Source: a virus. From it: a stretch of 33,207 nt of DNA. Positions within the stretch are counted from its first letter, which is position 1, and each line of letters opens with the position of its first letter. Position numbers and translations under genes: made by a program. Below are positions 5,884 through 31,895 of this stretch, piece after piece. The stretch spans positions 1 to 33,207 of IMG/VR virus record IMGVR_UViG_3300025736_002425; one strand, given 5' to 3'. The notes beneath the pieces were generated by a model. It was given only the letters and a program-made list of their open reading frames with translations, made no database searches and was not told the DNA's origin.

Positions 5884-5956
5884 CAGAGATTGGCTCAACT
5901 GGCAGAGCGGGTGCTTTGGGAGCATCAGGTTGCAGGTTCGAATCCTGTATCTCTGA
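5884..5956 (+). tRNA. tRNA-Pro(UGG)
   Basis: The full cloverleaf is visible: acceptor CAGAGAT (5884-5890) with ATCTCTG (5949-5955); D stem GCTC/GAGC (5893-5896, 5905-5908) with a GG-containing loop; anticodon stem GGTGC/GCATC around the loop TTTGGGA (5915-5921), anticodon TGG at 5917-5919; variable AGGTT; T stem GCAGG/CCTGT with the loop TTCGAAT. The C1-G72 pair and A73 discriminator are bacterial tRNA-Pro identity elements, and G37 follows the anticodon as expected for proline. CCA is not encoded and would be added by host enzyme. It would read CCN codons, chiefly CCA, in this AT-rich phage. Confidence 0.95.
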
Positions 5957-5979
5957 CTTAGGTTAAGTTAAGGAAAATT

Positions 5980-6312
5980 ATGAGTAAAGCATGGAAAGAT
6001 TTAGAAAAAACAACCGCACTAGTACTAAGGGGTAGACGAATTATTCGCCAATCTTATAGTGAAGTTAATTGTGATGTTATATTGGAAGACTTTCCTTCTT
6101 TTAAGATTGATGCCAAGAGATATAAAAAGTTTAGAGTATTTTCTCTTTATGAAGAAGTCAAGAAAAAGTATTGTAAGCAACCCGATGATGAACCCATTCT
6201 CGTTTTAAGACAGCATAATAAAGTTACCAAATTGGCAGTAATTGATCTTAATCTTTTAGCTGATTTTTTAGATTATATTAGAGAAAAAGGAGGTCAAGAT
6301 GGGTTTAGTTGA
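5980..6312 (+). CDS. Second PD-(D/E)XK nuclease-like protein
   Basis: A 110-residue protein. The pattern WKDLEKTTALVLRGRRI, then SEVNCDVILEDF, then FKIDAKRYKKF matches small phage resolvase-like nucleases: an N-terminal helix, Asp in a DV dipeptide, and a D-x-K pair (IDAK). A strand pair (ILVLRQHNKVTKLAVIDL) and a C-terminal helix (LLADFLDYI) complete the fold. It resembles the nuclease gene at 2334 in motif order but not in detailed sequence, so this window carries two. The role in recombination or DNA processing is inferred. AAGGAAAATT precedes the ATG, and the next gene's start overlaps its 3' end by 14 bases, placing it at the head of the deazaguanine operon. Confidence 0.6.
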   Translation: MSKAWKDLEKTTALVLRGRRIIRQSYSEVNCDVILEDFPSFKIDAKRYKKFRVFSLYEEVKKKYCKQPDDEPILVLRQHNKVTKLAVIDLNLLADFLDYIREKGGQDGFS

Positions 6313-6802
6313 TTTAGGGTCCGTATTTCCTGTTGGAGATAAGGCCATGAAATATAGATATTTTTTAACTTCTGAGTTCAAGTTTGATGCGGCTCATCGT
6401 CTTTCTAACTACAAAGGAAAATGTAGCCAAATCCATGGACATACTTATCGAGTGATAATAACTATTGGATCATTCAAACTAAACCACTGGGGGGCAGTAA
6501 TGGATTTTGGTGATTTGAAAAAGATATTTAGAAATCATATTGATCAAAAGTATGATCACAAAACGATTCTTTGGGCAAAAGATAAAGACAACCAGACAAT
6601 CGCTAGCGCTATGGGTAAAGATTGGATCACATGGATGGATAACAACCCTACTGCTGAAAATATGGCAAGAGATATTTGGAATGATTTACTTCCTGTATTT
6701 AAACAATCTGCCCTTGAAGGAATAGAATTAGTCCAAGTTACTATTTACGAAACAGCAACAAACGCTGCAAGTTACCGAGAAGAAACATGGAAGAAAAAAT
6801 AG
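6299..6802 (+). CDS. queD: 6-carboxytetrahydropterin synthase
   Basis: A 167-residue QueD. It converts 7,8-dihydroneopterin triphosphate (made by FolE) to 6-carboxytetrahydropterin, the second step of preQ0 synthesis. Zinc ligands His33 (FDAAHRL), His46 and His48 (CSQIHGH) are present with the catalytic Cys42. MDFGDLK, the DHKTIL region with the Asp-His pair, NPTAEN and VTIYETATNAASY are all typical. The start at 6299 has a strong AAAGGAGGT site 4 bases upstream; a second in-frame ATG at 6347 would remove a 16-residue extension that is not part of the family core and is also possible. It overlaps queE by 16 bases. Confidence 0.95.
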   Translation: MGLVDLGSVFPVGDKAMKYRYFLTSEFKFDAAHRLSNYKGKCSQIHGHTYRVIITIGSFKLNHWGAVMDFGDLKKIFRNHIDQKYDHKTILWAKDKDNQTIASAMGKDWITWMDNNPTAENMARDIWNDLLPVFKQSALEGIELVQVTIYETATNAASYREETWKKK

Positions 6803-7545
6803 ATATGGCAATTAAACAAGATAGTTTACTGGTTAGTGGAGACAAGTGCTTTTTTTCTCTACAAGGAGAAGGTGATTCTATTGGTAGACCAGCAATATTT
6901 TTAAGACTTCATTTATGTAATCTTCAATGTTCCTTTTGTGATACTCCTTATACTTGGGACAGGAAAGATAAGAGATTTTTTACTGAACCTGAAAGATGGA
7001 GTATAAAAGAAACAGTAAAAAAGATAGAAAAATACCCTTGTAGTCGTTTGGTTATTACTGGAGGAGAACCTTTATTACAAAAAGGGGCTCTTATAAAACT
7101 AATTGATTTACTTTTTCCCAATCATACAACTTCTGCTTATCTAAGAGATTGGAAAATCGAAATTGAAACAAATGGAACATTACCTCCGCTTCGTTTTGAG
7201 AAACAACTTCGTAGAGATATTCAATACAACGTTTCTCCTAAACTAGAAAATTCAGGTAATCTCAAAATTTTAAGATATAGTCCTGGTGTTTTAAAAAGAT
7301 TTAACTCTCTTTCTCTTGCCACATTTAAATTTGTAGTCACCTGTAATAAAGATTTAGAGGAAATTGAGAAAATTGTTAAAGAATGTGGATTAGATAAAGA
7401 TAAGATAATTTTAATGCCTGAAGGTATCAAACAAGAAGACGTAGCTAGACATGGACGAGCAGTTGCTGAATTATGTAAAGAAAAAGGTTGGCGATTAATT
7501 CCCAGATTACATATCCTCCTATGGGGCAACAAAAGAGATAAATGA
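6787..7545 (+). CDS. queE: 7-carboxy-7-deazaguanine synthase (radical SAM)
   Basis: A 252-residue QueE, which rearranges 6-carboxytetrahydropterin to 7-carboxy-7-deazaguanine using S-adenosylmethionine and a 4Fe-4S cluster. The cluster motif is C44-x3-C48-x2-C51 (CNLQCSFCDTPYTW), preceded by FFSLQGEG and followed by TGGEP (SAM binding), IEIETNGT and YNVSPKLENSGN, all QueE landmarks. The end, GWRLIPRLHILLWGNKRDK, matches the family C-terminus. The start at 6787 overlaps queD; an in-frame ATG at 6805 is an alternative. The next gene begins in its stop (ATGA). Confidence 0.95.
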   Translation: MEEKIDMAIKQDSLLVSGDKCFFSLQGEGDSIGRPAIFLRLHLCNLQCSFCDTPYTWDRKDKRFFTEPERWSIKETVKKIEKYPCSRLVITGGEPLLQKGALIKLIDLLFPNHTTSAYLRDWKIEIETNGTLPPLRFEKQLRRDIQYNVSPKLENSGNLKILRYSPGVLKRFNSLSLATFKFVVTCNKDLEEIEKIVKECGLDKDKIILMPEGIKQEDVARHGRAVAELCKEKGWRLIPRLHILLWGNKRDK

Positions 7546-8375
7546 AAACAATAGCAATTATTGGACATACAGGAATGGTGGGGAAAAGAGTGTATGAGTG
7601 GTTTAAAAAAAGAATTTATCCTAAATATAAAGTAATGGGGTTATCTTTAGATAAACAAAGCTATAATTGGAAAGAAATTAACAGAGAAGCTGATTATATC
7701 TTTATAGCCGTACCAACACCTTTTGATTGGAGCAAGAAAGAATATAAAACGAATATTGTGGAAGAAGTATTAGATAAAATTGTTGGTAAAAAGAAAGTAA
7801 TTATTAAATCAACAATTGTCCCAGGAACAACTGATAAACTCCAAAAAAAACATCCTAAATTACTTCTTTTCTTTAATCCTGAATTTTTAAGTGAAAAAAC
7901 AGCAGAAGCAGATTTTGTTAGTCCAGATAGACAAATAATTGGTTATACAAACAAAAGCTATCCTCATGCCCAAGAAATCCTACATTTACTTCCTCAAAGT
8001 CCTTGTGATGTAATATGTGCGGCGAGTGAGGCTGAAATATCTAAATATGTCAACAATTTTCATGGTGCATTGATGGTCATGTTTGCCAACTTCTTTTACG
8101 ATATTTGTCAACCACTTAACGCTGATTTTGAAGTAGTTAAAGGTATCTCAATAGCTTCTAAGTGGGTTGGATCACCAATGGGCAGAATGTATTGGGACGT
8201 ATGGCATAAAGGTAAAAGAGGATATAGAGGAAGTTGTTTTCCAAAAGACATTAACAGTTTGATTAAGTGGTGTAAAGAAAATAAAATTAACACTGAGATA
8301 ATTGAAGCAACTAGAGAGGCCAATATTCGTATATTAAAAAGTCAAGACTTAACTGAAGAAGTCAAAAAAAAATGA
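7542..8375 (+). CDS. Short UDP-glucose/GDP-mannose 6-dehydrogenase-like protein
   Basis: A 277-residue protein with an N-terminal Rossmann fold (IAIIGHTGMVGKRV), the strand pair IFIAVPTPFD and IIKSTIVPGTT, and FNPEFLSEKTAEADF, all typical of nucleotide-sugar 6-dehydrogenases. The central helical region has the conserved SKYVNNFHGALMV (Lys/Asn) and the catalytic Cys in GYRGSCFPKD. Normal family members have about 400-450 residues; this one stops soon after the catalytic Cys and so lacks the C-terminal UDP-binding domain. It sits between queE and queC and is probably translated with them, yet has no known role in deazaguanine synthesis. It may serve the sugar module instead, or act on an unusual substrate. 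Confidence 0.82.
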   Translation: MKTIAIIGHTGMVGKRVYEWFKKRIYPKYKVMGLSLDKQSYNWKEINREADYIFIAVPTPFDWSKKEYKTNIVEEVLDKIVGKKKVIIKSTIVPGTTDKLQKKHPKLLLFFNPEFLSEKTAEADFVSPDRQIIGYTNKSYPHAQEILHLLPQSPCDVICAASEAEISKYVNNFHGALMVMFANFFYDICQPLNADFEVVKGISIASKWVGSPMGRMYWDVWHKGKRGYRGSCFPKDINSLIKWCKENKINTEIIEATREANIRILKSQDLTEEVKKK

Positions 8376-8524
8376 AAGATCTAATTCTATCAACATTAAC
8401 AGGCACAATTTGTGGGTTTATATTTGCTAAATTAAAATTACCCATACCCGCCCCTGGTGTACTAGCAGGAATCGCAGGTATTCTCGGTATATACTTAGGA
8501 TATAAATTATCAAGTTTACTTTAA
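8372..8524 (+). CDS. XapX-like (DUF1427) small membrane protein
   Basis: A 50-residue protein starting in the previous stop (ATGA). LILSTLTGTICGFIFAKLKLP, then PAPGVLAGIAGILGIYLGYKL, is a close match to the XapX domain pattern: two hydrophobic helices around a Pro-rich turn (LPIPAP) with Gly-rich second helix. XapX proteins occur near xanthosine phosphorylase and other genes in bacteria; their function is not established. Its place among purine-related genes (queC and a phosphoribosyltransferase follow) echoes that context, but a transport role is only inference. Confidence 0.72.
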   Translation: MKDLILSTLTGTICGFIFAKLKLPIPAPGVLAGIAGILGIYLGYKLSSLL

Positions 8525-8533
8525 GAAGAAAAT

Positions 8534-9202
8534 ATGAAAAAAGCAGTTATAGTGTTTTCAGGAGGAATGGATTCTACTACCGCACTTTACCAAGCAGTAG
8601 AAGATGGATACAAAGTATATGCGATCTCTTTTGATTATGGACAAAAGCATAAAAAAGAATTAGAACACGCAGAGAAAATTTGTTTGATAAAAAAAGTAGA
8701 TCACAAAATTGTTGATTTAACTAACATAACAAGTCTTATTAGCAATTCAGCTTTAACAAGTGATATAGAAGTACCTGAAGGGGACTACAAAGAAGATAAT
8801 ATGAAAATTACTGTTGTGCCCAATAGAAATATGATTATGGCCTCGATAGCAGTTGGATATGCAGTTAACATTAAAGCAGAGGCGGTCTACCTTGGAGTTC
8901 ATGGAGGAGATCATTTCGTATACCCTGATTGCCGTCCCCATTTTATAGAGGCGCTAAACCTTGTCAGTTACTTGGGTAATGAGGGGTTCTGTAAGAAAAG
9001 TTTTCGGATAATTACTCCTTTTATGTATGAAACGAAAAAAGACATAGTAAAAACAGGAGTGAAGCTGAATGTGCCTTATGAATTAACTTGGTCGTGCTAT
9101 AAGGGCGGAGAAAAACATTGTGGCAAATGTGGTACCTGTGTAGAAAGAAAAGAAGCCTTTACTTTAGCGAAAGTTAAAGATCCAACTAAATATGAAAACT
9201 GA
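8534..9202 (+). CDS. queC: 7-cyano-7-deazaguanine synthase
   Basis: A 222-residue QueC, which uses two ATP and ammonia to turn the 7-carboxyl group into the nitrile of preQ0. The PP-loop SGGMDS is at residues 9-14, followed by SFDYGQKH, VVPNRNMIMASIAVGYA, YLGVHGGDHFVYPDCRP, and the four-Cys zinc site near the C-terminus (SCYKGG...HCGKCGTCVER). Length and motifs are those of stand-alone QueC; no amidotransferase fusion of the kind used to make later deazaguanine derivatives is present. AAGAAGAAAAT precedes the ATG. It overlaps the next gene by 11 bases. Confidence 0.96.
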   Translation: MKKAVIVFSGGMDSTTALYQAVEDGYKVYAISFDYGQKHKKELEHAEKICLIKKVDHKIVDLTNITSLISNSALTSDIEVPEGDYKEDNMKITVVPNRNMIMASIAVGYAVNIKAEAVYLGVHGGDHFVYPDCRPHFIEALNLVSYLGNEGFCKKSFRIITPFMYETKKDIVKTGVKLNVPYELTWSCYKGGEKHCGKCGTCVERKEAFTLAKVKDPTKYEN

Positions 9203-9641
9203 AGAAATCAATTATAGTTGGAAGAATTTAATTAGAGATACAAAACTTTTGGCCGACTGGATTAAAGAATCAAAATATAACTTCGAAATACTTGTTGCCA
9301 TCACTAGAGGAGGATTATTTGTTTCTGGTATGTTGTCTCAATATTTGGATATTAAAGCCATTGAAACAATTTCCATACATTCTTATAACAACAAAAAACG
9401 ACATAAAATGGTTTTATTTAAAGGAATAGACAAAAAACTACCTTGTAACAAAAAAACCTTAATTTGTGACGACGTTATCGATACGGGCGAAACAATGAAT
9501 ATCACTAAAAGACTATTTCCTAATAGTAAAATAGCGGTATTACACTATAAATTAAAAAACAAGCCAATTATTAAACCAGATTATTACTGTCAAAATACTG
9601 ACAAGTGGATAGTCTATCCATGGGAGGTAAATGAAAAATGA
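9192..9641 (+). CDS. Purine-type phosphoribosyltransferase (Gpt-like)
   Basis: A 149-residue type I phosphoribosyltransferase. LVAITRGGLFVSGMLSQYL is the N-terminal pyrophosphate loop region, and TLICDDVIDTGETM is the PRPP-binding motif (DD-x-x-DTG-x-T). WIVYPWEV near the C-terminus resembles the purine-ring segment of xanthine-guanine enzymes. Such enzymes join guanine, xanthine or hypoxanthine to PRPP to give the nucleotide. It lies between queC and folE with overlapping ends. Inference: it could reclaim the guanine released when the DpdA-like enzyme swaps a base in DNA. The exact base is not determined by the sequence. Confidence 0.82.
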   Translation: MKTEEINYSWKNLIRDTKLLADWIKESKYNFEILVAITRGGLFVSGMLSQYLDIKAIETISIHSYNNKKRHKMVLFKGIDKKLPCNKKTLICDDVIDTGETMNITKRLFPNSKIAVLHYKLKNKPIIKPDYYCQNTDKWIVYPWEVNEK

Positions 9642-10234
9642 GTTTACAAAGCGGTTCAACAAAACCAGTTAGAAATAAAATTGATAGCAAAAAGCTTTAT
9701 AAAGCTGCAGAGCTATTATTAGATGCGATAGAAGGATCTAAAAGAAGGGAGGGAACAGAAAGAACTCCTGAACGAATAGCAAGAGATTGGCCAGAGTTAT
9801 TTGAGGGATATAACTATCGAGTAAAAGATGTTTTAAATCGAACTTTTGAAGCAGAAGATTGTGACGAAATGGTAATAATAAGTACTGATTTTACTAGTAC
9901 CTGTGAACACCACATACTTCCATTCAGAGGGAAGGCGTGGATCGGATACATTCCAATTGATCGTATTGTCGGATTAGATAAATTAATTAAACTTGTTTGG
10001 ATGTTTTCTAAAAGACTTCAAAACCAAGAAAGAATTACTACTCAAGTGGCAAAAGCGATAAATGACACGCTAAACCCACTGGGAGTAATGGTTGTTTTAA
10101 AAGCCAGTCATGACTGCGTTTCTTTGAGGGGAACAAAATCAATTAATAGTATTACTACAACTTCTGCTTGTTTGGGAGTATTTAGAGATAAAATTGAAGT
10201 AAGAAGCGAGTTTTTAAACCTTATTAATAAATGA
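9638..10234 (+). CDS. folE: GTP cyclohydrolase I
   Basis: A 198-residue FolE, which opens GTP and forms 7,8-dihydroneopterin triphosphate, the entry step for preQ0 (and folate). TSTCEHHILPFRGKAWIGYIP holds the zinc ligand Cys89 and the His91/His92 pair; the second zinc Cys lies in SHDCVSLRGTK, where most relatives have HMCMxMRG. RTPERIARDW and GLDKLIKLVWMFSKRLQNQERIT are standard family blocks. The ATG overlaps the phosphoribosyltransferase stop (ATGA-type). It is encoded last among the four preQ0 genes although it acts first. Confidence 0.96.
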   Translation: MSLQSGSTKPVRNKIDSKKLYKAAELLLDAIEGSKRREGTERTPERIARDWPELFEGYNYRVKDVLNRTFEAEDCDEMVIISTDFTSTCEHHILPFRGKAWIGYIPIDRIVGLDKLIKLVWMFSKRLQNQERITTQVAKAINDTLNPLGVMVVLKASHDCVSLRGTKSINSITTTSACLGVFRDKIEVRSEFLNLINK

Positions 10235-11040
10235 GGCTATACTTTGCAGGATACAGTGCTTATCATAGAGAAGCTAAAAAGGCGGGTTTAGAAAGTATAT
10301 TAGAGTCTTATTTAACGTTCAGAAATAAAGGGAAAGGGGGATTTGTTCAATGGCATAAAGACAGGGGCTTGTTAAATAAAAATATCTTTTTAGATTCAGG
10401 TGCTTTTTCTGCTTGGACTAGGAACATAACTATTGACATAGATAAATATGCCGATTTTGTAAAAAAACACCTTCCTTATTTAAAGGTTTATGCGAATCTT
10501 GACGTTATTGGTGACGCTAAAGCTACAGAAAAAAATCAAAGATACTTAGAAAGCAAGGGATTAAAACCTCTCGCCACTTTTCATATCGGTTCTCCTTATA
10601 AGAAATTAGAGCAGATGGTTAAAGAGTATGACTACATAGCCTTAGGAGGATTAGTTGGTGTTCCTCGTCCCCGCAGAATAAAACATTTAGATAAGTGTTT
10701 TCGGATTATTAGATTAAAAAGCAAGATTCACGGTTTTGGTGTCGGAGATTTCCAATTACTATTAAGATATCCTTTTTATTCAGTTGATAACACTAATTGG
10801 ATACTTGGTGGTCGGATAGGAGCGGTTTATAACTTTGATAAAAAAAGATTAAAACTACAGAGCACATGGTATAAAGACAAACGAATCCTTGATAGAATAA
10901 AAAAAGCAGGAGTTTATAAATTTTTCGATGAAAAAAGCAAGGCTCATAGAAATCGTACTTTAGAAAATGCGATGGTATTTAAAGAAGTAGAAGCCTTTGT
11001 TACCCGTGTATGGGAAAAACGAGGAGTTAAATATGACTAA
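10231..11040 (+). CDS. dpdA: DpdA-like DNA deazaguanine transglycosylase
   Basis: A 269-residue protein resembling phage DpdA, a relative of tRNA-guanine transglycosylase that exchanges guanine in DNA for a 7-deazaguanine base. LDSGAFSAW (Asp55) parallels the substrate-binding DSGGFQ of the tRNA enzymes, YIALGGLVG (135-143) parallels their GG-x-x-G segment, and YPFYSVDNTNW (Asp186) has the position and context of the nucleophilic Asp. HGFGVGDFQLLLRYPFYSVD is a DpdA-type signature. The Cys-rich zinc site of tRNA transglycosylases is absent, as in phage DpdA. Its ATG overlaps the folE stop, completing a preQ0-to-DNA operon. Assignment is from motifs; sequence specificity is unknown. Confidence 0.85.
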   Translation: MRLYFAGYSAYHREAKKAGLESILESYLTFRNKGKGGFVQWHKDRGLLNKNIFLDSGAFSAWTRNITIDIDKYADFVKKHLPYLKVYANLDVIGDAKATEKNQRYLESKGLKPLATFHIGSPYKKLEQMVKEYDYIALGGLVGVPRPRRIKHLDKCFRIIRLKSKIHGFGVGDFQLLLRYPFYSVDNTNWILGGRIGAVYNFDKKRLKLQSTWYKDKRILDRIKKAGVYKFFDEKSKAHRNRTLENAMVFKEVEAFVTRVWEKRGVKYD

Positions 11041-11671
11041 ATATAAACACGAAGTCAAACTTATTAAAATAGAGGAAATTAGAAAGAATAATTATAATCC
11101 TAATGTTGTTCCAGAAGAAATTCTAGAGCAATTAATAAAAAAGATTAAGGAAGAAGGATTTTTACAACCAATTTTGCTAAGAAGAATTAAGCCCAAAGGT
11201 AAGATTAAATATGAAATTATTGACGGTGAACATAGATTTATTGCAGGAATAAAAACTAACTATACAGAACTACCTTCGATTATTGTCGATAAAAATCTTC
11301 CTGATGCTATGATTTCTACAATCAATATGAATAAACTTAGAGGCGAATTTGACACTTTAAAATTGGCAGAAGTTATTCATACGCTTCATAAAACCTATTC
11401 TATGGAAGAATTAGAAGATAAATTAGGTTATACCCAAGACCAAATGGAGGGAATGAAAGATCTATTAGATTATGATTTTGATGCTTTTGACGATGAAGGA
11501 GTTAGTTTAAATGAAACAGAGAGCCAAGAATATGAATTTAAAATCATACTAACGGGGAAACAAAACAAAATTGTTAATAGTGCAATTGAGGCAACAGGAA
11601 AAGAAGACATCCCCAAAGCACTGGTTACTATTTGTTTAGAGTATTTAACAAAACATGGCAAAACAAAGTAA
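11033..11671 (+). CDS. ParB/Srx-domain protein
   Basis: A 212-residue protein from the ATG that overlaps the dpdA stop region; an upstream in-frame start at 10997 would lie inside dpdA. Residues 1-100 form a ParB-like N-terminal domain: VKLIKIEEIRKNNYNPN, LIKKIKEEGFLQPILLRR, and YEIIDGEHRFIAG, the nucleotide-binding GE(H)R box. A helical part follows (LAEVIHTLHKTYSMEELEDK with an HTH-like LGYTQDQMEGM). Phage ParB-like proteins beside terminase genes act as DNA-binding regulators, nucleases or CTP-dependent clamps; which applies here is unknown. It may help select the packaging site, given that terS follows directly. Confidence 0.82.
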   Translation: MTKYKHEVKLIKIEEIRKNNYNPNVVPEEILEQLIKKIKEEGFLQPILLRRIKPKGKIKYEIIDGEHRFIAGIKTNYTELPSIIVDKNLPDAMISTINMNKLRGEFDTLKLAEVIHTLHKTYSMEELEDKLGYTQDQMEGMKDLLDYDFDAFDDEGVSLNETESQEYEFKIILTGKQNKIVNSAIEATGKEDIPKALVTICLEYLTKHGKTK

Positions 11672-12311
11672 AATCTTGCCATTACCGAAAGAAATAATAG
11701 CAGAAGCTCAAAATGTTGATCCTGATAATGTCAACAAAATGGCTTTACGTAGAAGCAAGGTCAGAGAACTTATGAGAATGGGATATGGGCCTTATCAAAT
11801 GGCTCGTATTTTAGAAAAAGGAATTAAAGTTGGCAAAAATCAAATTGTTGAAGTTCCAGTATCTCCACAGGTAGTTGCAAATGATATAGAATATATTAGA
11901 CAAGATGAATTAGCTCAAGATATCGATTTCAACGAAAAAAGAGCAGAAATTAAAGATAAGCTCGATTTTCTGTATCAGAGAGCGGTACAAGAATATTTAA
12001 ACGCCAAAGGGTCAACCAGAGCTACTTTTATGAACACTGCTCTGTCGGTTTTAAATAAGATAATGGATATTGAAGGTATTAAGTCATCTGATAATTTAAA
12101 TATTAATTTAAACGCAGAAGCTAAAATAGCAAAATTCTCTGTAGAAATGCAGAAGTTAAACGAAAATGACAAATCTATTATTCTCGCCGCAATTCACAAA
12201 GTTCGTAAACAACGCAAGTCTGGAGGAACTGGAAACACTGGAATTCCTGACAAACAATCCAGAGTACCAATACAAACCAGTAACAATGAAGGAGTTTCTA
12301 GAAAACCCTAA
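11655..12311 (+). CDS. Terminase small subunit-like protein
   Basis: A 218-residue protein immediately before the large terminase, overlapping the ParB-like gene by 17 bases. Residues 28-60 (MALRRSKVRELMRMGYGPYQMARILEKG) look like a helix-turn-helix DNA-binding region, followed by a strand segment and long helices (NEKRAEIKDKLDFLYQRAVQEYL; FMNTALSVLNKIMDIEGI) suited to oligomerisation, and a Lys/Arg/Gly-rich disordered tail (KVRKQRKSGGTGNTGIPDK). Position, size and layout fit small terminases, which recognise pac or cos DNA; direct family signatures are weak. The last 146 bases are also read in another frame as the start of terL. Confidence 0.7.
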   Translation: MAKQSKILPLPKEIIAEAQNVDPDNVNKMALRRSKVRELMRMGYGPYQMARILEKGIKVGKNQIVEVPVSPQVVANDIEYIRQDELAQDIDFNEKRAEIKDKLDFLYQRAVQEYLNAKGSTRATFMNTALSVLNKIMDIEGIKSSDNLNINLNAEAKIAKFSVEMQKLNENDKSIILAAIHKVRKQRKSGGTGNTGIPDKQSRVPIQTSNNEGVSRKP

Positions 12312-13845
12312 ATTTGTTACCAAACAAGACGGCCCCAGACCTTACAATAAACAACTTCTTATAGATATTTTTGATGGGTTTGATACTTGGGAAGAATTTG
12401 AAAACTTAGGAAAATATGAGGAAGTTTTATATATTGCGGGGATTGGTTCGGGCAAATCCTATGTATCTTCAATGGCAATTGTTTATATCATCTATCGCCT
12501 TTTATGTTTAAGAAATCCCCAAAAATATTTTAAATTTGCTAAAGGTACTAAAATTGCTTTTGTTAATATTTCTAAATCATTTAGTCAAGCCAAGGATATT
12601 GTTTTTGGTGAGATCAAGAACAGAATAGACAATAATCAATGGTTTCAAAATTTCTATCCACCCGATCCCCGTATTAAGTCAAAAATACGAATGCCTAAAA
12701 ACATTTTCATATTACCGCTAGGTTCTAATGAAGAATCTCCTCTTGGTTATAACATCTTTGGATCAGTTATAGACGAAGCCTCCTTTCATACACTGACTAA
12801 AGACAAAGATTATGCGGAAGAATCATACAATCAGATTAAAAAACGTATTCGTTCTCGTTTTTTTAGTAAAGGAAAAATGTTTATTATTACTTCTCCTAGA
12901 TATGTTTATGATTTTGCCGAAACCAAATTTGAGGAAGAAAAGAATAATCCCAAGGTACTAAGAAGAAGAACGCCACTATGGGAAGCAATGCCTGAAGAAA
13001 TGTTTGGTGGAGAAAAATTTGATTTAGGTAAATATCTATCTGTTTATAAAGAAAAAGGAATAATGGTTCCAGTCGAATACGAAACTGAATTTCAACAAAA
13101 CCCCGAAAGGGCAATGAGGGACTATGGAGCTGAACCATCAATGGCAATTCAAGGATTTTTCAATGATTCTGAAGTCATCAATAATAATGCTAACTATAAA
13201 AGGAAACATCCAATAAGCCTCAAAACTGGTGAATTTTCAGAATGGTTTTTTAATCACAGAGGAAGCGAGAATTTTGATACAGATAAAAGATTTATCCATA
13301 TCGATTTAGGACTTAACAAGGGAGGCAAGGGGGATTGTGCTGGTCTTGCAATGGGTAAATTTAATGGCTGGATGGAAGCTAAAAGCAGTAAGGGTAAAAT
13401 TGAGAAACGTCCTAAAATCTTTATTGACTTGATGATGCAAATAAAAGCAGGACCTAAAGACGAGATTCAATTTGAAGAAGTTAGACAAATAATCTACAAA
13501 TTAAAAAACATTGGATACAATATTCACCTCATTACATTTGACGGATGGCAAAGCGTTGATTCTGTCCAAACATTAAAATCAGCTGGTTTTAACGCTGATT
13601 TCTTTTCAGTAGACCGCAATCCTGAGGCATACTACACCCTAAAAGCTGCCTTATTAGACAAACGATTGGATTATTACTACTACAAACCTTTTATTAGTGA
13701 ATTACAACAATTGGAGGAAATTAAAGGAATGAAAATTGACCATCCTAGACAAGGAAGTAAAGACGTTGCTGATGCAGTAGCAGGTGTTTGCTATCAATGT
13801 GGGAAAGGCACACCTGGATACGGTTTTAAGATAGTAGGAAAATGA
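12166..13845 (+). CDS. terL: Terminase large subunit
   Basis: A 559-residue packaging motor. ATPase: Walker A AGIGSGKSY (about residues 91-99), Walker B with catalytic Glu in GSVIDEAS, and the coupling segment MFIITSPRY. Nuclease domain: HIDLGLNKGGKGDCAGLAMG (first Asp), LITFDGWQSVDS (second acid) and KDVADAVAGV (third Asp), an RNase H-like metal site. It pumps DNA into proheads and cuts concatemers. Start: the ATG at 12166 gives an N-terminus with EELETLEFLTNNPEYQYKPVT, typical of relatives, so the 146-base overlap with terS is kept; the ATG at 12286 is the alternative. Confidence 0.94.
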   Translation: MTNLLFSPQFTKFVNNASLEELETLEFLTNNPEYQYKPVTMKEFLENPKFVTKQDGPRPYNKQLLIDIFDGFDTWEEFENLGKYEEVLYIAGIGSGKSYVSSMAIVYIIYRLLCLRNPQKYFKFAKGTKIAFVNISKSFSQAKDIVFGEIKNRIDNNQWFQNFYPPDPRIKSKIRMPKNIFILPLGSNEESPLGYNIFGSVIDEASFHTLTKDKDYAEESYNQIKKRIRSRFFSKGKMFIITSPRYVYDFAETKFEEEKNNPKVLRRRTPLWEAMPEEMFGGEKFDLGKYLSVYKEKGIMVPVEYETEFQQNPERAMRDYGAEPSMAIQGFFNDSEVINNNANYKRKHPISLKTGEFSEWFFNHRGSENFDTDKRFIHIDLGLNKGGKGDCAGLAMGKFNGWMEAKSSKGKIEKRPKIFIDLMMQIKAGPKDEIQFEEVRQIIYKLKNIGYNIHLITFDGWQSVDSVQTLKSAGFNADFFSVDRNPEAYYTLKAALLDKRLDYYYYKPFISELQQLEEIKGMKIDHPRQGSKDVADAVAGVCYQCGKGTPGYGFKIVGK

Positions 13846-17442: not shown

Positions 17443-17603
17443 AAATAATAAAAAAACCTTTATTTACATTAATATCAGATAAACCAGCATCAGAGTGGGA
17501 TAAGGGAATTAAAATGGCTGACATAATTGAAAATATGAAAGGTAGTGCCGAAGACTTAAAAGAAACTGCTAATAGATTAGAAAGAAGCATTAAAAAAAAA
17601 TGA
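17439..17603 (+). CDS. Small helical protein
   Basis: A 54-residue ORF fitted exactly between two ATGA junctions (17439-17442 and 17600-17603), which strongly supports that it is translated. An N-terminal basic strand (KIIKKPLFTLI) leads to one long amphipathic helix (WDKGIKMADIIENMKGSAED, LKETANRLERSIKKK), probably a coiled coil. No family is recognised. Confidence 0.66.
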   Translation: MKIIKKPLFTLISDKPASEWDKGIKMADIIENMKGSAEDLKETANRLERSIKKK

Positions 17604-18775
17604 AAATACTTATATATGGCGATTATTGGAAATGGACTAGCGGTTATGCTAGAGAAATCAAAGACGTACTGCCCTATTTAAGAAAGAATAACGATGTCAG
17701 ACAAGTAGCTTTAGGATACAATGGATACCCGATAGATCACGATATGGTTGTTTACCACACCAAGACACCTGAAGTTAAAAACCACTACGCCCAAGAAGTA
17801 TTACATTATGCTATAGACGACTTTCAACCTGACATTGTATTAACCGTTCAAGATTTCTGGATGCTTCCTAAAATATCATTTACATTGGCTCATCCTGCTA
17901 AGTTTAAATGGGTTCACTGGGGGACATTAGACTCAGAGCCTTTAGATTTTTACTCAAGAGAATCTTTAAAATGGATGCATTATTGTTTTTGGCAATCTCA
18001 CTTTGGAGCAATTGAATGTAAACAAGTTGTTCCAGGATTAATGGGGGAAGTTATTTATCCTTCTGTCGATCCTAAAATATTTCACAAACTAGATAAAAAT
18101 AAACTAAAAAAACAATTCCAATTAGACGGAATCAATGTCTTGGTATGTAATGCCAGAGGGCAACAGCGCAAGAATGTTCCCGTCTTATTAGATGCTTTTA
18201 AAGAGGTAATTAAAGAAGTACCAAATACTACACTTATTTTGTCTTCAGGTATTAAAAGAACAAAAACAGATTCGGGAGAATTTGACGGATACGATTTGGA
18301 AAGGTTTGTTCACGAGTTGGGTTTAGTTAATTATGTACTTTTACCACGAGGTAAAGACAGAGGGCCGATAGATGATAAAACCCTCAACATTCAATACAAT
18401 CTCGCAGATATAAACATTCTTCCCTCTTGGGGTGAAGGTTTCGGGCTGCCGTTTATAGAAGCTGGCATCTCTGCCGTCCCTTCTATTGGCGTTGACCACT
18501 CGGCGGTTCGCGAGATTGTTAAAAACAGGGGGTTACTGATTAAATCACGAGCCTATACTTATAACTTAGATGGCTCAAAATATCAACTTTGTCATCCTGA
18601 TGACTTAAAAGAAGCAATAGTAAAATTACTTACAAATAAGGGAACTAGAAAGAAATATGGCAAAGAAGCAGAGAAGTTCGCCAAAAAACTAACACCTGAA
18701 AGTAGAGCAAAATTAATGTTAGATAGATTTAAGAAATTAATTAAAGAGGACGCGCAGCCTTTTACAAGAAGATAA
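17600..18775 (+). CDS. GT4-family glycosyltransferase
   Basis: A 391-residue GT-B enzyme that moves a sugar from a nucleotide donor. The N-terminal domain begins MKILIYGDYWKWTSGYARE; the C-terminal domain has VLVCNARGQQRKNVPVLLDA (donor-site start), a strand VLLPRG, and the donor motif SWGEGFGLPFIEAGISAVPSI with the conserved EGFGLPFIE. Acceptor and sugar are unknown. It begins the sugar module directly after the head-protease block, coupled to the small helical gene by ATGA. No signal peptide or membrane segment is seen, so it acts in the cytoplasm. Confidence 0.88.
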   Translation: MKILIYGDYWKWTSGYAREIKDVLPYLRKNNDVRQVALGYNGYPIDHDMVVYHTKTPEVKNHYAQEVLHYAIDDFQPDIVLTVQDFWMLPKISFTLAHPAKFKWVHWGTLDSEPLDFYSRESLKWMHYCFWQSHFGAIECKQVVPGLMGEVIYPSVDPKIFHKLDKNKLKKQFQLDGINVLVCNARGQQRKNVPVLLDAFKEVIKEVPNTTLILSSGIKRTKTDSGEFDGYDLERFVHELGLVNYVLLPRGKDRGPIDDKTLNIQYNLADINILPSWGEGFGLPFIEAGISAVPSIGVDHSAVREIVKNRGLLIKSRAYTYNLDGSKYQLCHPDDLKEAIVKLLTNKGTRKKYGKEAEKFAKKLTPESRAKLMLDRFKKLIKEDAQPFTRR

Positions 18776-18776
18776 T

Positions 18777-19040
18777 ATGGAACCAGGCGAAAAACAATAT
18801 AAAAAAGGAGATTTGCTTATTTTATCATCAGGCGAGTATTCGGATTATCATATAAGAACTGTCTGTAAAGTTTTGAAAACATTTAAAGAACAAGATGTGG
18901 CAAACCTATATAAAGAGAATGGTAGTTATGGTTCTGGAGGAGATAAATTTATAACAAATTTAATTAACGAGGGATATGTTGAAGAAATAGATTATAAAGA
19001 ATGGAGATTTACTTATTATTCAGAATTAGAATTTAGTTAA
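18777..19040 (+). CDS. Hypothetical protein
   Basis: An 87-residue protein one base after the glycosyltransferase stop. It is acidic and Tyr-rich, with a possible small barrel start (KKGDLLILSSGEYSDYHIR) and a helix (DKFITNLINEGYVEEIDYK). The start is inside AT-rich sequence without a strong ribosome binding site. No family is recognised. Confidence 0.58.
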   Translation: MEPGEKQYKKGDLLILSSGEYSDYHIRTVCKVLKTFKEQDVANLYKENGSYGSGGDKFITNLINEGYVEEIDYKEWRFTYYSELEFS

Positions 19041-19042
19041 AA

Positions 19043-19486
19043 ATGCCACTAAATAATTACACATCAAGTATGGCCATTAATAGAATATTTGATGGTATTC
19101 AAAAAATGTTAGTTGAACACGGTGCTAAACAGATTATGTTTGACTATGATGATGGGCGGGCTGTCGGACTTACGTTTACTATTCAAACACCCAAGGGCAT
19201 GTTGCCAATTAAACTACCAGTAAGAATTGAGAAAATTAAAAAGGTTTTTGAAAATGATGGTATTCGTTGTAAAGATGATTTACAGCCTTATAGAACTGGA
19301 TGGAAAAATATTCATGATTGGGTAAAGGTTCAGATGGCCATGATTGATACTGAAATGGTTAAATTAGAAGAAATCTTTTTACCTTATATGGCAGGACAAG
19401 ATGGTAAGACATATTTCGAGATTTTAGAAAGCAGAGATTTTATGATTCGAAGTGGTAAATTTGAAAATGGAGAGGTAATAAAATGA
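19043..19486 (+). CDS. Conserved phage protein of unknown function
   Basis: A 147-residue protein. Its C-terminal half, WKNIHDWVKVQMAMIDTEMV, KLEEIFLPYMAGQDGKTYFE, resembles a protein type often seen in phage genomes, with a preceding beta region (GAKQIMFDYDDGRAVGLTFTI). The function of that type is unknown to me. It overlaps the ATP-grasp gene by 4 bases (ATGA). Confidence 0.68.
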   Translation: MPLNNYTSSMAINRIFDGIQKMLVEHGAKQIMFDYDDGRAVGLTFTIQTPKGMLPIKLPVRIEKIKKVFENDGIRCKDDLQPYRTGWKNIHDWVKVQMAMIDTEMVKLEEIFLPYMAGQDGKTYFEILESRDFMIRSGKFENGEVIK

Positions 19487-20301
19487 ATTTTAAGAAAAAC
19501 TGCATGAGTTATTGGTTTCCTAAGTTAGCAAAGACAGGCATTCCTTTTCCCCAGACAGCCATAGTTGACATGAACAAAATAGACGATAATTTCAACAAAG
19601 CAATGATGAAACTATTTTGGATGAAAAAACTCGACGAAAAAGACATGAGAACCTTTTCTAGCTTCAGAGGATTACTTGAACACATGATAACAAGGATGGG
19701 TGGATATCCTGTCTTCATAAGAACTGGGCAAACCAGTCACAAACATCAGTGGTCTGAAACTTGTTATGTTAAACAAAAAGATACATTAATGAAAAATGTT
19801 CAAACAATGTTGGAATACAGTATTATGTCTAGCGTAAATCCAAAAAAATCATTCCCTATTAATGTTTGGGTGGTAAGAAAATTAATTCCTACTAGTCCAA
19901 TATTTAGTGCATTTGGCAGTCAAATACCAATAACAAAGGAGATGAGATTCTTTATTCGTGACGGTAAAATTGAATGTATGCATCCATACTGGCCAGAAGA
20001 AGCAATTAAAGGATTTAATAAGGATAAAGATTGGAAGAAAAAACTAAAAACAATGAATATTATTAACAAAGATGATCTTAATCATTTGAAAAAATTAACA
20101 TTAAAAGTTGCTCATGTTTTTAAAGGATATTGGTCAATAGACTGGTTAAAATCTAAAAGTGGCAAATGGTACGTAATTGATATGGCAACGGGTGAAGACT
20201 CGTATCACTGGAAGGATTGCCCTAATAATAAAAAGGAGGTAAATATGGCTAGACGTAATAAACCTAAAAGAGAAAAGAAAAAACCTAAAAAGAAAAAATG
20301 A
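19483..20301 (+). CDS. ATP-grasp-like ligase with polybasic tail
   Basis: A 272-residue protein. PVFIRTGQTSHKHQWSETCYV, then INVWVVRKLIPT, MRFFIRDGKIECMHPYWPEEAI and WSIDWLKSKSGKWYVIDMATGEDSYHW give the alternating strand and metal-binding pattern of an ATP-grasp fold (Lys/Arg for ATP phosphates, acidic metal ligands near IDMATGE). Phage-encoded R2K-type ATP-grasp proteins are similar in size and are thought to join amino acids to a target, but the assignment here is by pattern only. The last 18 residues (MARRNKPKREKKKPKKKK) are almost all basic and start at an internal Met with its own perfect ribosome binding site. Confidence 0.66.
   Translation: MNFKKNCMSYWFPKLAKTGIPFPQTAIVDMNKIDDNFNKAMMKLFWMKKLDEKDMRTFSSFRGLLEHMITRMGGYPVFIRTGQTSHKHQWSETCYVKQKDTLMKNVQTMLEYSIMSSVNPKKSFPINVWVVRKLIPTSPIFSAFGSQIPITKEMRFFIRDGKIECMHPYWPEEAIKGFNKDKDWKKKLKTMNIINKDDLNHLKKLTLKVAHVFKGYWSIDWLKSKSGKWYVIDMATGEDSYHWKDCPNNKKEVNMARRNKPKREKKKPKKKK
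20233..20301 (+). other. Internal ribosome binding site and in-frame start for an 18-residue polybasic peptide
   Basis: AAGGAGGT at 20233-20240 and ATG at 20245 give textbook spacing inside, and in frame with, the ATP-grasp gene. Initiation here would make only the polybasic tail as a separate peptide. It could also be a remnant of a former separate gene that has fused to the ATP-grasp frame by loss of a stop. Confidence 0.5.
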
Positions 20302-21038
20302 AAGATAAAGTAAGTATTATTTGTCCCACATGGAACAAACTAGAGTTTTTAAAACCAATGATGGAGTCTGTTGAGAAGAATACTCAATGGCCTTTTGAAC
20401 TGATTGTTGTCGATAATGCGTCAGATGATGGCACTCAAGAGTTTGTTTTAACCTCTAATTTTAAGATGGATGGACAATATATAAGAAATGAAGAAAATAA
20501 AGGTTTCGCTATCCCCAACAATCAAGGGGCAAAAGTAGCCAAAGGTAATTTCTTATGTCTTTTAAATAACGACACAATCGTAACCAAAGGATGGCTAACT
20601 GCCATGATGAAAGTTTTTAGTGAAGAAAAAGCAGTTGGTTTAGTCGGTGCTCGACTTATTCACCCAGGTAAAGGAACAATTCAACACGCTGGTATAGTCG
20701 AATATAAATCAGGAGTGCCAGATCATGTCTATTTTAATAAACCAATGAATTATCCACCAGCAATGAAAAGACAACAATACTTTGCTGTTACTGGAGCTTG
20801 TATGGTTATTCCTAAAGCTCTTTTTGAAGAACTAGGAGGATTTGATGAAAGATATTGGTGTGGGTGGGAAGATATGGATTTGTGCCAAAGAGTAAAAGCA
20901 AAGGGACATAAAATCTATTACGAACCTACATCTCTTGTTTATCACTATGAATCAAGAACAGAAGGTAGATATAGTAAAGAAGGGTCTAACTTTTCGCTCT
21001 ACATGCAAAAATGGATTTTAGGTAAAAAACAAAGTTGA
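20298..21038 (+). CDS. GT2-family glycosyltransferase
   Basis: A 246-residue GT-A enzyme. VSIICPTWNKLEFLKPMMES and FELIVVDNASDDGT form the nucleotide-binding start, LLNNDTIV is the DxD-like metal site, and TGACMVIPKALFEELGGFDERYWCGWEDMDLC contains the ED catalytic-base motif typical of rhamnosyltransferase-like GT2 proteins. It ends with SLYMQKWILGKKQS. The middle domain of the large fusion protein at 23206 is a clear relative. The start overlaps the ATP-grasp stop (ATGA). An HNH endonuclease gene lies immediately downstream, and a WILGK-like coding remnant occurs after it. Confidence 0.9.
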   Translation: MKDKVSIICPTWNKLEFLKPMMESVEKNTQWPFELIVVDNASDDGTQEFVLTSNFKMDGQYIRNEENKGFAIPNNQGAKVAKGNFLCLLNNDTIVTKGWLTAMMKVFSEEKAVGLVGARLIHPGKGTIQHAGIVEYKSGVPDHVYFNKPMNYPPAMKRQQYFAVTGACMVIPKALFEELGGFDERYWCGWEDMDLCQRVKAKGHKIYYEPTSLVYHYESRTEGRYSKEGSNFSLYMQKWILGKKQS

Positions 21039-21063
21039 TTTTTAACCCATCTTGTTATATAAT
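21035..21063 (+). promoter_or_regulatory. Sigma70-type promoter for the HNH gene, leaderless layout
   Basis: TTGATT (21035-21040), a 17-base spacer and TATAAT (21058-21063), 7 bases before the ATG at 21071. There is no ribosome binding site. The endonuclease thus appears to have its own promoter overlapping the glycosyltransferase stop. Confidence 0.65.
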
Positions 21064-21070
21064 ATGTTAT

Positions 21071-21688
21071 ATGAAAAACGGAAGACCTGATTTATCAAAA
21101 AAAGCAAGAAAAAGAATCAGTGAGAAATTAAAAGGTCATCCTGTTAGTAAAGAAACAAGAGAAAAGATTAGTAAAATTAATAAAGAACAATATTCTCATG
21201 GTCGAAAAAAATTCTCACCATGGAAAGGAAAAAAACTATCAGAAGAAACCAAAAGAAAGATGAGTATAATTAGAAAAGGTAGAAAACATTGGTGGGGTAA
21301 TAAAATTGGTGAATCGTTAAAAAAGACATGGGAAAATAAAAGTACTGAATCAAAAAGAAAACATAGTGAAAAGGTAAAGAAATCATTAAAAGAAAAGTAT
21401 CCAAATGGAAGAACTGGTAAAATTGCAGCAAATTGGCGAAATGGACTAACAGAAAAGAATTATTCAATTAGACATCAAAGAGGATATAAGATTTGGCGAA
21501 GAAAAGTATTAGAAAAATATCCCATATGTAATAAGTGTAGAAAGAGGAAATCAATACACGCAGACCATATTAAACCTGTATCTAAATTTCCAGAACTGGC
21601 ACTAAAGTTAAGTAATGGTCAAGGATTATGTAAAATTTGCCACAAAGCAAAAACTAAAGAAGATTATAAAATTTATATTTATAAATAA
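21071..21688 (+). CDS. Free-standing HNH homing endonuclease with NUMOD3-type repeats
   Basis: A 205-residue, very basic protein starting at the ATG 7 bases after TATAAT; an upstream in-frame start at 21035 would lie upstream of the -10 element and is not used. The N-terminal part has NUMOD3-like DNA-binding repeats (SEKLKGHPVSKETREKISK; GKKLSEETKRKMSIIRKGRK). The C-terminal HNH nuclease has CNKCRKR, HADHIKPVSKFPE and GLCKICHKAKT, giving the zinc Cys pairs and the catalytic His region. Such enzymes cut intron-less or gene-less alleles and spread by gene conversion. It separates the GT2 gene from the gene at 21723. Confidence 0.88.
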   Translation: MKNGRPDLSKKARKRISEKLKGHPVSKETREKISKINKEQYSHGRKKFSPWKGKKLSEETKRKMSIIRKGRKHWWGNKIGESLKKTWENKSTESKRKHSEKVKKSLKEKYPNGRTGKIAANWRNGLTEKNYSIRHQRGYKIWRRKVLEKYPICNKCRKRKSIHADHIKPVSKFPELALKLSNGQGLCKICHKAKTKEDYKIYIYK

Positions 21689-21690
21689 TT

Positions 21691-21726
21691 ATGAGTACTT
21701 GGATACTCGGAAAGGAGAAAAAATGA
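21691..21726 (+). pseudogene. Remnant resembling the end of the upstream glycosyltransferase gene
   Basis: A 12-codon ORF reading MSTWILGKEKK just after the HNH gene. Its WILGK-(E/K) stretch resembles the WILGKKQS end of the GT2 protein at 20298. A plausible reading is that the HNH gene inserted at the 3' end of the glycosyltransferase gene and displaced its original terminus. The match is short and could be chance. The same bases hold the ribosome binding site of the next gene. Confidence 0.4.
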
Positions 21727-22028
21727 GATTTAAACTATGGCCTGCTAATGTCAAACTTATCAATAAGAGATTTCATAATAGATACACAGGTAAAAAAGAA
21801 ACATATATTAAAAGTAGTAGAGCATCCGTTATCCATTGTCCAAAATGTTATCAAGTATTAAAATATATTTCATGTTTACACAAGGAAGAATACAAAGGTA
21901 CATTTTGTTTTGATTGTGGCAGAGATTTAAGGAAACCATTTACTAAATGTGAGAAGATTAGACATTGGTTAAGATGGTTAGGAGACAAAAGAATACTAGC
22001 TAAATGGCCAATAGGATATTTAAAATGA
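21723..22028 (+). CDS. Small zinc-finger protein
   Basis: A 101-residue basic protein, started at the ATG that follows AAAGGAGAAAAA rather than at the earlier in-frame start inside the HNH gene. HCPKC (about residue 38) and FCFDCG (about 65) form a likely zinc ribbon, with extra Cys at SCLHK and TKCEK. The C-terminal part is Trp/Arg-rich (IRHWLRWLGDKRILAKWPIGY). No specific family is recognised. It ends in ATGA with the next gene. Confidence 0.66.
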   Translation: MRFKLWPANVKLINKRFHNRYTGKKETYIKSSRASVIHCPKCYQVLKYISCLHKEEYKGTFCFDCGRDLRKPFTKCEKIRHWLRWLGDKRILAKWPIGYLK

Positions 22029-22324
22029 ATAAAGTAATTAAAAAAGGTATTAAAAAAGCAATTATTATTTATGAAGATCCTGATACAGGAGAAGGTCGTA
22101 GAGTTGTTTTTGGAGAACTCGCACCATTAATGAGTTTTATGATAGGACAATTACCTTTGTTTTGGAAAAGATTACAACAAATGTCGAATAAAAAATTTGA
22201 TAATCCTCTCGAAATGATTATGTATTATGAAAAACATAAAGGGAAAGGAATAAAAACACATGGGATTGAAGGTGCAGATGATATGTCAATGGATTTAACT
22301 TATAAAGTAAGGGAAGTAAAATGA
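22025..22324 (+). CDS. Hypothetical protein
   Basis: A 99-residue protein starting in the previous stop (ATGA). It begins with a basic strand (KVIKKGIKKAIIIYEDPDTG), then a helix with a hydrophobic face (FGELAPLMSFMIGQLPLFWKRLQQM) and an acidic end. No family is recognised. It overlaps the next gene by 4 bases. Confidence 0.62.
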   Translation: MNKVIKKGIKKAIIIYEDPDTGEGRRVVFGELAPLMSFMIGQLPLFWKRLQQMSNKKFDNPLEMIMYYEKHKGKGIKTHGIEGADDMSMDLTYKVREVK

Positions 22325-22620: not shown

Positions 22621-22633
22621 TATAAAGTATAAT
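22606..22633 (+). promoter_or_regulatory. Promoter with TATAAT 5 bases before an ATG
   Basis: TTGCCG (22606-22611), a 16-base spacer and TATAAT (22628-22633), then 5 bases and the ATG at 22639. It may make a leaderless mRNA for the small ORF at 22639 or a leader of about 55 bases for the gene at 22694. Confidence 0.5.
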
Positions 22634-22638
22634 AATAT

Positions 22639-23203: not shown

Positions 23204-23205
23204 AA

Positions 23206-26833: not shown

Positions 26834-26835
26834 AT

Positions 26836-31876: not shown

Positions 31877-31895
31877 ACTACTTTATTAAAAAATC

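Follow-up and report, generated by a model that had tools for sequence, protein, structure and literature searches.

Gene content of the operon

Positions 6299-11040 of the window, by which we mean the whole 33,207-nucleotide stretch that was analyzed, carry intact genes for QueD, QueE, QueC, FolE and DpdA in a single translationally coupled operon, with overlaps of 4-16 bp between most neighboring open reading frames. All window genes described here are on the plus strand. QueD, a 6-carboxy-tetrahydropterin synthase (6299..6802), matches PF01242 (PTPS, 1.3e-33), exceeds the TIGR03367 cut-off and has a C-x3-HGH motif, and QueE (6787..7545) matches phrog_2076 (2.3e-52) and PF04055. The 7-cyano-7-deazaguanine (preQ0) synthase QueC (8534..9202; PF06508, 3.6e-72; TIGR00364 over cut-off) is a 222-aa protein with the PP-loop SGGMDS and a Cys-rich zinc motif, and it lacks an amidotransferase fusion. 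It is followed downstream by FolE, GTP cyclohydrolase I (9638..10234; PF01227, 2.6e-56; TIGR00063 over cut-off), and by the DNA-guanine transglycosylase DpdA (10231..11040; phrog_887, 1.5e-50). The catalytic motifs of the pathway enzymes are intact. Pfam, NCBIfam and PHROG profiles bear out the names and coordinates that the original prediction gave to these five overlapping genes, but its list was incomplete, as genes for a UDP-glucose-dehydrogenase-like protein, a XapX protein and a phosphoribosyltransferase (PRT) also lie within the operon. The same arrangement recurs in at least eight further viral contigs, with DpdA identities of 77-83%, and hence is not due to chance.

Two of the additional genes stand between queE and queC. 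The first encodes a short nucleotide-sugar (UDP-glucose-type) dehydrogenase (7542..8375) of 277 aa that matches PF03721 and PF00984 only; it lacks the C-terminal UDP-binding domain, has the catalytic Cys motif GSCFPKD, and has its nearest cellular homologue in Patescibacteria. We considered this protein as a possible modification enzyme, but it is retained in relatives without que or dpdA genes and therefore belongs to the phage backbone rather than to the pathway. The second encodes a 50-aa small membrane protein with a XapX domain (8372..8524; TIGR03510, 1.2e-16), which is found solely in part of the cassette-bearing relatives.

The third additional gene (9192..9641), which had gone unnoticed in the first reading of the sequence, encodes a full-length xanthine/guanine-type PRT located between queC and folE, and its stop overlaps the folE start by 4 bp. 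The protein matches PF00156 above cut-off (3.1e-14) and E. coli XGPRT (PDB 1a95). Its match to the NCBIfam equivalog for xanthine PRT (NF006613; 6e-30) reaches 103.9 bits, short of the cut-off of 138, and we therefore describe it as a relative of the xanthine PRT family with an inferred activity, not as an equivalog. The PRT of the window (R39 G40 G41, D93 D94 D97, K120, W139 I140, P143 W144) and those of its relatives keep the PRPP loop, Lys, Trp and Asp (D97) of the E. coli enzyme. We take the Lys and Trp to be base contacts, and the Asp to correspond to the residue opposite N7 of the purine in XGPRT and HGPRT. The gene is absent from the close cassette-bearing relatives L010, L035, L039, L041 and L042, and thus is helpful but dispensable, or else the host takes over its function.

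As judged by alignment and structural modeling, DpdA keeps the transglycosylase residues and is predicted to have a tRNA-guanine-transglycosylase fold. Residues D55, D91, H118, H167, D186 and W190 are invariant across 18 phage DpdA proteins, in an alignment that includes 9g, Bipper and VpKK5-type sequences. Because a sequence search of the PDB gave 7ui4 as the sole match, at E=0.07, we compared folds instead, and the AF2 model (pLDDT 81.8) retrieved tRNA-guanine transglycosylase with Foldseek (E=3.3e-8, probability 1.00). Overlapping the end of dpdA is a gene for a protein with a ParB_N domain (11033..11671; PF02195, 2.4e-15, over cut-off), and such a gene adjoins DpdA in every cassette-bearing relative in which the DpdA region is covered. 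Among the matches listed, ParB lies within 200 bp of DpdA at 38 of 117 unbiased DpdA loci, versus ParB in 2 of 120 controls. Bacterial DpdB, of the DpdA-DpdB system, is a ParB-like ATPase (PMC12839542). The phage protein is thus a candidate DpdB-like partner of DpdA, a role that is inferred, with no DpdB sequence having been compared. A 500-aa DpdA on a Patescibacteria contig (L322) was also considered as a fusion of DpdA with the small terminase subunit TerS, but its C-terminal 245 aa gave no TerS match (hhalign E=0.2).

The predicted DNA base and its swappable locus

The pathway part of this locus is of an already known kind. The E. coli phage CAjan, which has FolE, QueD, QueE, QueC and DpdA without an amidotransferase or QueF, carries dPreQ0 in place of about 32% of G, and the Mycobacterium phage Rosebush, with the same set, carries it in place of about 28% (PMC6884629). 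It had been proposed that neither QueF nor an amidotransferase-fused QueC is encoded here, and this holds for the window: neither there nor in G009, a syntenic relative of 102 kb, did a QueF profile give more than weak cross-hits at FolE, although about two thirds of the phage genome lies outside the window, and ArcS and DpdC were not among the profiles searched. Within these limits, the absence of QueF makes dPreQ0 the best prediction for the modified base, as in CAjan and Rosebush, with its identity in virion DNA being inferred. We also set aside further conversion of the base by this phage, to either preQ1 or archaeosine, since the window lacks QueF and Gat-QueC. The prediction that the base remains preQ0 is therefore supported for this phage type, which has the CAjan/Rosebush gene set, but it cannot be extended to the phage group as a whole because relatives differ in the final step. 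For example, L041 has a true QueF, whereas L039 lacks QueC on its 48-kb contig and has a SAM methyltransferase instead.

The que/dpdA cassette is a swappable island. Its left edge is a backbone gene without a family match, ORF110 (5980..6312), that is 52-76% conserved in cassette-bearing and cassette-free relatives alike. At the right edge is a putative small terminase subunit (11655..12311), assigned by its position before the large subunit TerL and likewise without a family match, which is 34-76% conserved in both sets of relatives. TerL itself (12166..13845) matches phrog_2 (2.3e-23); the first ATG of this frame lies inside the preceding gene, and the true start may be later. The closest relatives (TerL identity 91-92%) have ParB with an N6/N4- or C5-methyltransferase at the island site, and in others the site holds a QueF variant or is empty. 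Entire DNA-modification chemistries are thus exchanged at one site among phages that scarcely differ in their packaging and structural genes. The host is probably a member of the Patescibacteria, for which the evidence is moderate.

Phosphoribosyltransferases linked to the pathway in other viruses

A search of viral contigs with the single PRT protein matched only one identical contig. We therefore rely on scans in which PRT and DpdA loci were selected by motif alone, with dUTPase loci as the control; all counts from these scans are among the matches listed and are not corrected for shared ancestry. QueD, QueE, QueC or FolE is present at 89 of 114 PRT-motif loci versus 4 of 120 dUTPase loci (Fisher p=1e-35), and two of these four also have a PRT. 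When the loci are clustered at 50% identity, 20 of the 32 clusters show the association. The nearest que or fol gene is always on the same strand as the PRT, and is within 200 bp in 46 of 83 cases. A recognized DpdA is absent at most PRT loci, and DpdA is therefore not demonstrable as the source of guanine there. A TGT-like family of about 500 aa (A7) was considered as the transglycosylase of PRT phages that lack QueC, but it provides no specific support, being found in 12 of 120 control loci as well as in 16 of 50 PRT records.

When contigs were picked by the DpdA motif alone, 28 of the 79 FolE-bearing loci were found to encode a PRT-FolE fusion; at 50% identity these fusions fall into 9 of 52 DpdA clusters, and at 70% into 23 of 102 (again among the matches listed). 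The fused N-terminal domain belongs to the PRT family (hhalign 5e-33) and corresponds to E. coli XGPRT (6e-10), in a form shortened to about 100-120 residues. The PRPP-loop and Trp residues D66, D67, D70, G72, T74 and W110 are invariant in 16 fusions. Such proteins occur in cultured 7-deazaguanine phages, among them Quinobequin-P09 (QFR59680.1) and VpKK5 (AIM40617.1). Laboratory phages that infect Pseudomonas (including the NP1/PaMx25 type) or Vibrio carry the fusion, which is annotated there only as GTP cyclohydrolase. We found no link of a PRT to DpdA or to FolE in the literature searched, subscription papers excepted, and an earlier report is not excluded.

A proposed guanine cycle

For each modified base DpdA must free one guanine, and in known phages modification reaches tens of percent of guanines; the fate of this guanine was not raised in the papers searched. 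We propose that this tailed phage, probably of Patescibacteria, would swap some of the guanines in its DNA for preQ0 after replication. FolE, QueD, QueE and QueC would make preQ0 from GTP, and DpdA, probably helped by the ParB-domain protein, would exchange it for guanine in DNA. The PRT would then join the free guanine to PRPP to form GMP, which kinases would convert to GTP, the substrate of FolE, and hence waste from the last step would feed the first. We favor this explanation as a whole, with some reservation, since guanine as the PRT substrate and DpdA as its source are inferred. Fusion of a PRT to the first enzyme of the pathway, which consumes GTP, would offer a concrete and testable answer to where the guanine goes. 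A GTP supply of the phage's own would make particular sense in a Patescibacterium, whose genome is very small, if that is indeed the host.

The only point separating this proposal from general purine salvage is the source of the guanine. The PRT could produce GMP or XMP from whatever free bases are at hand, most of them released as host DNA and RNA are degraded, so that more GTP is available to FolE and for making phage DNA; its link to the pathway would then exist because FolE burns GTP, rather than because guanine is released by DpdA. That most PRT loci carry FolE, QueE or QueD without a recognized DpdA (among the matches listed), and that the fusions join the PRT to FolE rather than to DpdA, are consistent with salvage. 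Nevertheless, many phage DpdA types fall outside the profiles used, making a missing DpdA weak evidence, and none of the dUTPase loci listed has two or more que genes, which ties the PRT to this pathway rather than to nucleotide metabolism at large. We regard salvage as unlikely, while still giving it real weight.

Two other roles for the PRT seem far more remote. Regulatory proteins with a PRT fold exist, and the shortened fused domain could be one of them, with both it and the free PRT sensing PRPP or a purine to tune FolE without catalysis. The invariance of all the PRPP-loop and Trp residues in the 16 fusions and the full-length stand-alone form in the window speak against this, and we give it little credence. 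It is also conceivable, if highly improbable, that preQ0 or some other 7-deazaguanine base is the substrate of the PRT and is turned into its nucleotide for entry into DNA by polymerase or for retention in the cell. XGPRT-like genes are indeed found in Campylobacter phages with dADG in their DNA, for which a modified-dGTP route has been proposed (cited in PMC6884629). However, the Asp facing N7 (D97, or D70 in fusions) is invariant and 7-deaza bases have no N7; moreover, the presence of DpdA in the window makes a nucleotide route unnecessary.

Returning to guanine recycling, a broader generalization can be offered only tentatively, and we would not yet call it probable. Base exchange in phages may be a closed guanine cycle run through a dedicated PRT, either free beside folE or fused as a bifunctional PRT-GTP-cyclohydrolase, with ParB as a partner neutral to the kind of modification, one that is retained at the locus when N6/N4- or C5-methyltransferases take the place of DpdA.

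As in the bacterial Dpd system, DpdA has a ParB-superfamily neighbor, but the phage makes its own preQ0, and no DpdC or restriction genes were seen in the window. The PRT shares its fold family, PRPP loop and base-contacting Lys and Trp with E. coli Gpt (PDB 1a95); unlike Gpt, it is phage-encoded and is coupled to GTP cyclohydrolase I or forms a fusion with it, and it scores below the NCBIfam cut-off for the cellular enzyme. Among the closest counterparts are the 'group 2' dPreQ0 phages CAjan and Rosebush (Hutinet et al. 2019, PMC6884629), which share FolE, QueD, QueE, QueC and a phrog_887-type DpdA and similarly lack an amidotransferase and QueF, and in Rosebush-like B-cluster phages DpdA is also adjoined by ParB and terminase. 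Nevertheless, the DpdA of this phage has only about 30-39% identity to that of any cultured phage, and the locus differs from those of CAjan and Rosebush in its separate PRT overlapping folE, its ParB gene after dpdA, the insertion of the cassette around a backbone dehydrogenase, and its probable Patescibacteria host.

The modification operon and its further genes

The window is a linear virus record of 33,207 bp and represents about one third of the likely phage genome. Genes for UvsX-like, SSB, RNA ligase, resolvase and exonuclease proteins lie 5′ of the operon (6299-11040), and terminase, portal and head protease genes, followed by a long series of sugar genes, lie 3′ of it. The original prediction had assigned QueD, QueE, QueC, FolE and DpdA to this operon, and all five assignments and their coordinates hold, as each either exceeded curated cut-offs or gave strong matches to phage families. 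Direct reading of the translations identifies C-x3-HGH in QueD, C-x3-C-x2-C in QueE, SGGMDS and a Cys cluster in QueC, and CEHH and HDC in FolE. However, the operon is not limited to these five genes. Further members, absent from the original prediction, are a short UDP-glucose-type dehydrogenase (277 aa, 7542-8375) and a XapX protein (50 aa) between queE and queC, a phosphoribosyltransferase (PRT, 9192-9641) between queC and folE that overlaps folE by 4 bp, and a ParB_N gene (11033-11671) that overlaps the end of dpdA. A tRNA-Pro (tgg) is located just upstream, at 5884-5957. The sugar region (17600-33190), which starts directly 3′ of the head protease gene, comprises ~15 kb of glycosyltransferase genes, one nucleotidyltransferase gene and epimerase genes and is syntenic in a 102-kb relative.

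A phosphoribosyltransferase associated with the preQ0 pathway

The window PRT matches purine PRTs of known structure, including E. coli XGPRT, and retains R39-G40-G41, D93-D94-x2-D97, K120 and W139-I140-x2-P143-W144. Its best matches in cultured phages are inside 7-deazaguanine clusters: the match adjoins folE in Brevundimonas phage MaInes, whereas Flavobacterium immuto phages, which also encode DpdA and QueF, have it between queE and folE. Another match is in Campylobacter phage WX1, relatives of which carry dADG (PMC6884629). Viral contigs selected by the PRT motif only were compared with control contigs of similar length (~9 kb) selected by a dUTPase motif. Among the matches listed, and with shared ancestry uncorrected, QueD, QueE, QueC or FolE is encoded in 89 of 114 PRT loci versus 4 of 120 controls, and two or more of them in 62 of 111 versus 0 of 120. 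Pathway genes are found in 20 of 32 PRT clusters formed at 50% identity (among the matches listed). In one contig, queC and the PRT gene are separated by an inserted NUMOD3/HNH homing-endonuclease-like gene (L007:1012-1776).

A third scan of viral contigs, by the DpdA motif only, yielded 117 DpdA loci, 79 with FolE (among the matches listed). In 28 of these 79, again among the matches listed and uncorrected for shared ancestry, FolE carries an N-terminal PRT domain, and the FolE proteins fall into two length classes (about 180-230 and 271-320 aa). The fused domain aligns with the PRT family of the window (hhalign E=5e-33) and, in the PDB, matches E. coli XGPRT (6e-10), with PRPP-loop and Trp residues invariant across 16 fusions. 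The fusion's structure model is confident, yet GTP cyclohydrolases fill its Foldseek list. Cultured phages also carry the fusion, including Pseudomonas phage Quinobequin-P09 and Vibrio phage VpKK5 (where it adjoins dpdA), with annotation as GTP cyclohydrolase only. Pfam mostly misses the shortened PRT domain, a possible reason for its having been overlooked.

Base exchange of the TGT type releases guanine, as is known for this enzyme family. We propose that guanine freed by DpdA would be converted to GMP by the PRT, and that kinases would then raise the GMP to GTP, on which FolE acts. Both steps are inferred, without base or activity data. Both the FolE fusion and the window's 4-bp overlap are consistent with a role in feeding FolE, although a weaker form of the proposal, wherein the PRT salvages guanine from any source, is the main rival and is not excluded. 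The FolE/QueD/QueE/QueC pathway has been shown in other systems to yield preQ0, whose insertion into DNA requires DpdA; dPreQ0 replaces ~28-32% of G in CAjan and Rosebush (PMC6884629).

Apparent exchange at the island and the likely host

DpdA and dehydrogenase scans of IMG/VR recovered at least ~35 loci from phages of the window's group, including contigs of 102,499 and 100,839 bp. Among the matches listed, seven contigs (L043-L049) keep the order ORF110-dehydrogenase-TerS-TerL, in which ORF110 is the left-edge gene (5980..6312), without any modification gene. The same order accommodates a ParB-N6/N4-methyltransferase fusion in L027-L031 and in L034, where queD is still present, and ParB with a C5-methyltransferase in L032 and L033. 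Because this order persists without modification genes or with methyltransferases, the dehydrogenase belongs to the phage backbone. The window's nearest backbone relatives among the matches listed, L027 (TerL 92%, portal 82%) and L032 (TerL 91%), both lack the 7-deazaguanine cassette, and all three group together in the dehydrogenase tree (support 100/99).

Some relatives have a FolE 81-87% identical to that of the window, whereas for others, with ~80% DpdA, the value is 35-38%; DpdA identity is 34-40% in L035, L039, L041 and L042. On these sequence grounds, the cassette's genes are exchanged individually. A true QueF (PF14489, 1e-20) is encoded in L041, L039 has no QueC but has a SAM methyltransferase, and L035 and L042 encode a distant QueC-like protein. 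Given the methyltransferase, QueF, QueC-less and empty variants, it seems that phages use the island to swap one DNA-modification chemistry for another. Among the matches listed, relatives with a modification enzyme always have a ParB domain, and those without one never do.

The SAM methyltransferase (L039:6210-7007) lies between folE and dpdA of a 48-kb contig without QueC, and might act on a 7-carboxy-7-deazaguanine-type base, by methylation or otherwise. A ~94-aa HAD-like (MKVIAIDFDGVI) protein adjoins the distant QueC-like gene in both L322 (4864-5148) and L042 (7782-8066) and is possibly tied to this QueC type. Cys-rich proteins of ~190-220 aa and similar sequence occur inside two cassettes (L035:8463-9032 and L041:12036-12698), with no Pfam family for that of L035.

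Among cellular matches to the short dehydrogenase, 14 of 16 are from Patescibacteria, and the nearest, from Ca. Chisholmbacteria (58%), groups with phage genes (support 99/97). A search with the window TerL gave matches in 2 of 380 genomes of Patescibacteria, of which one was strong (E=6e-85), and in 0 of 400 of Chloroflexota; beside TerL, the strongly matching contig also encodes DpdA, QueD, QueE, FolE and a QueC-like protein. Since misbinning and gene transfer cannot be excluded, the evidence for a Patescibacteria host is only moderate. Short nucleotide-sugar dehydrogenases without the UDP-binding domain (window 7542-8375; contigs L304-L318) occur in Patescibacteria sugar loci and in the phage group of the window. 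A Ca. Giovannonibacteria contig region (L315:7983-12328) with dehydrogenase, UvsX, SSB and PRT genes together looks like another Patescibacteria phage.

DpdA and its putative ParB partner

The window DpdA has no Pfam match and is only 30-39% identical to DpdA of cultured phages. D55-S56-G57, D91, H118, H167, D186 and W190 are common to it and the 17 further sequences in the alignment, that of phage 9g DpdA among them, and a PDB search with its AlphaFold2 model (pLDDT 81.8) returns tRNA-guanine transglycosylases (E=3.3e-8, probability 1.00). A second DpdA type (alignment A6, e.g. L020:14126-14917, phrog_19058), named DpdA in Flavobacterium immuto phages and 'unknown function' in PHROGs, occurs in 13 PRT loci versus 0 control loci among the matches listed. 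A ~500-aa family (alignment A7, e.g. L120:1235-2803) with the TGT-like motif DSGGFQ and without a Pfam match is common beside PRT and dUTPase alike in viral contigs. In a Patescibacteria genome contig, a DpdA directly upstream of TerL (L322:1787-3289) has an unassigned 245-aa C-terminal extension; by profile comparison it does not match TerS, which is expected at that place.

ParB lies within 200 bp of DpdA in 38 of 117 unbiased loci, and anywhere in 2 of 120 control loci (among the matches listed; shared ancestry uncorrected). Phage methyltransferases are also accompanied by ParB domains, whose role is unknown (PMC12783734). Based upon the proximity of ParB to DpdA, the ParB-like nature of bacterial DpdB, an ATPase required for insertion (PMC12839542), and the earlier suggestion that a mycobacteriophage ParB gene beside dpdA is DpdB (PMC6392294), we propose that the ParB protein may be a DpdB-like helper of DpdA.
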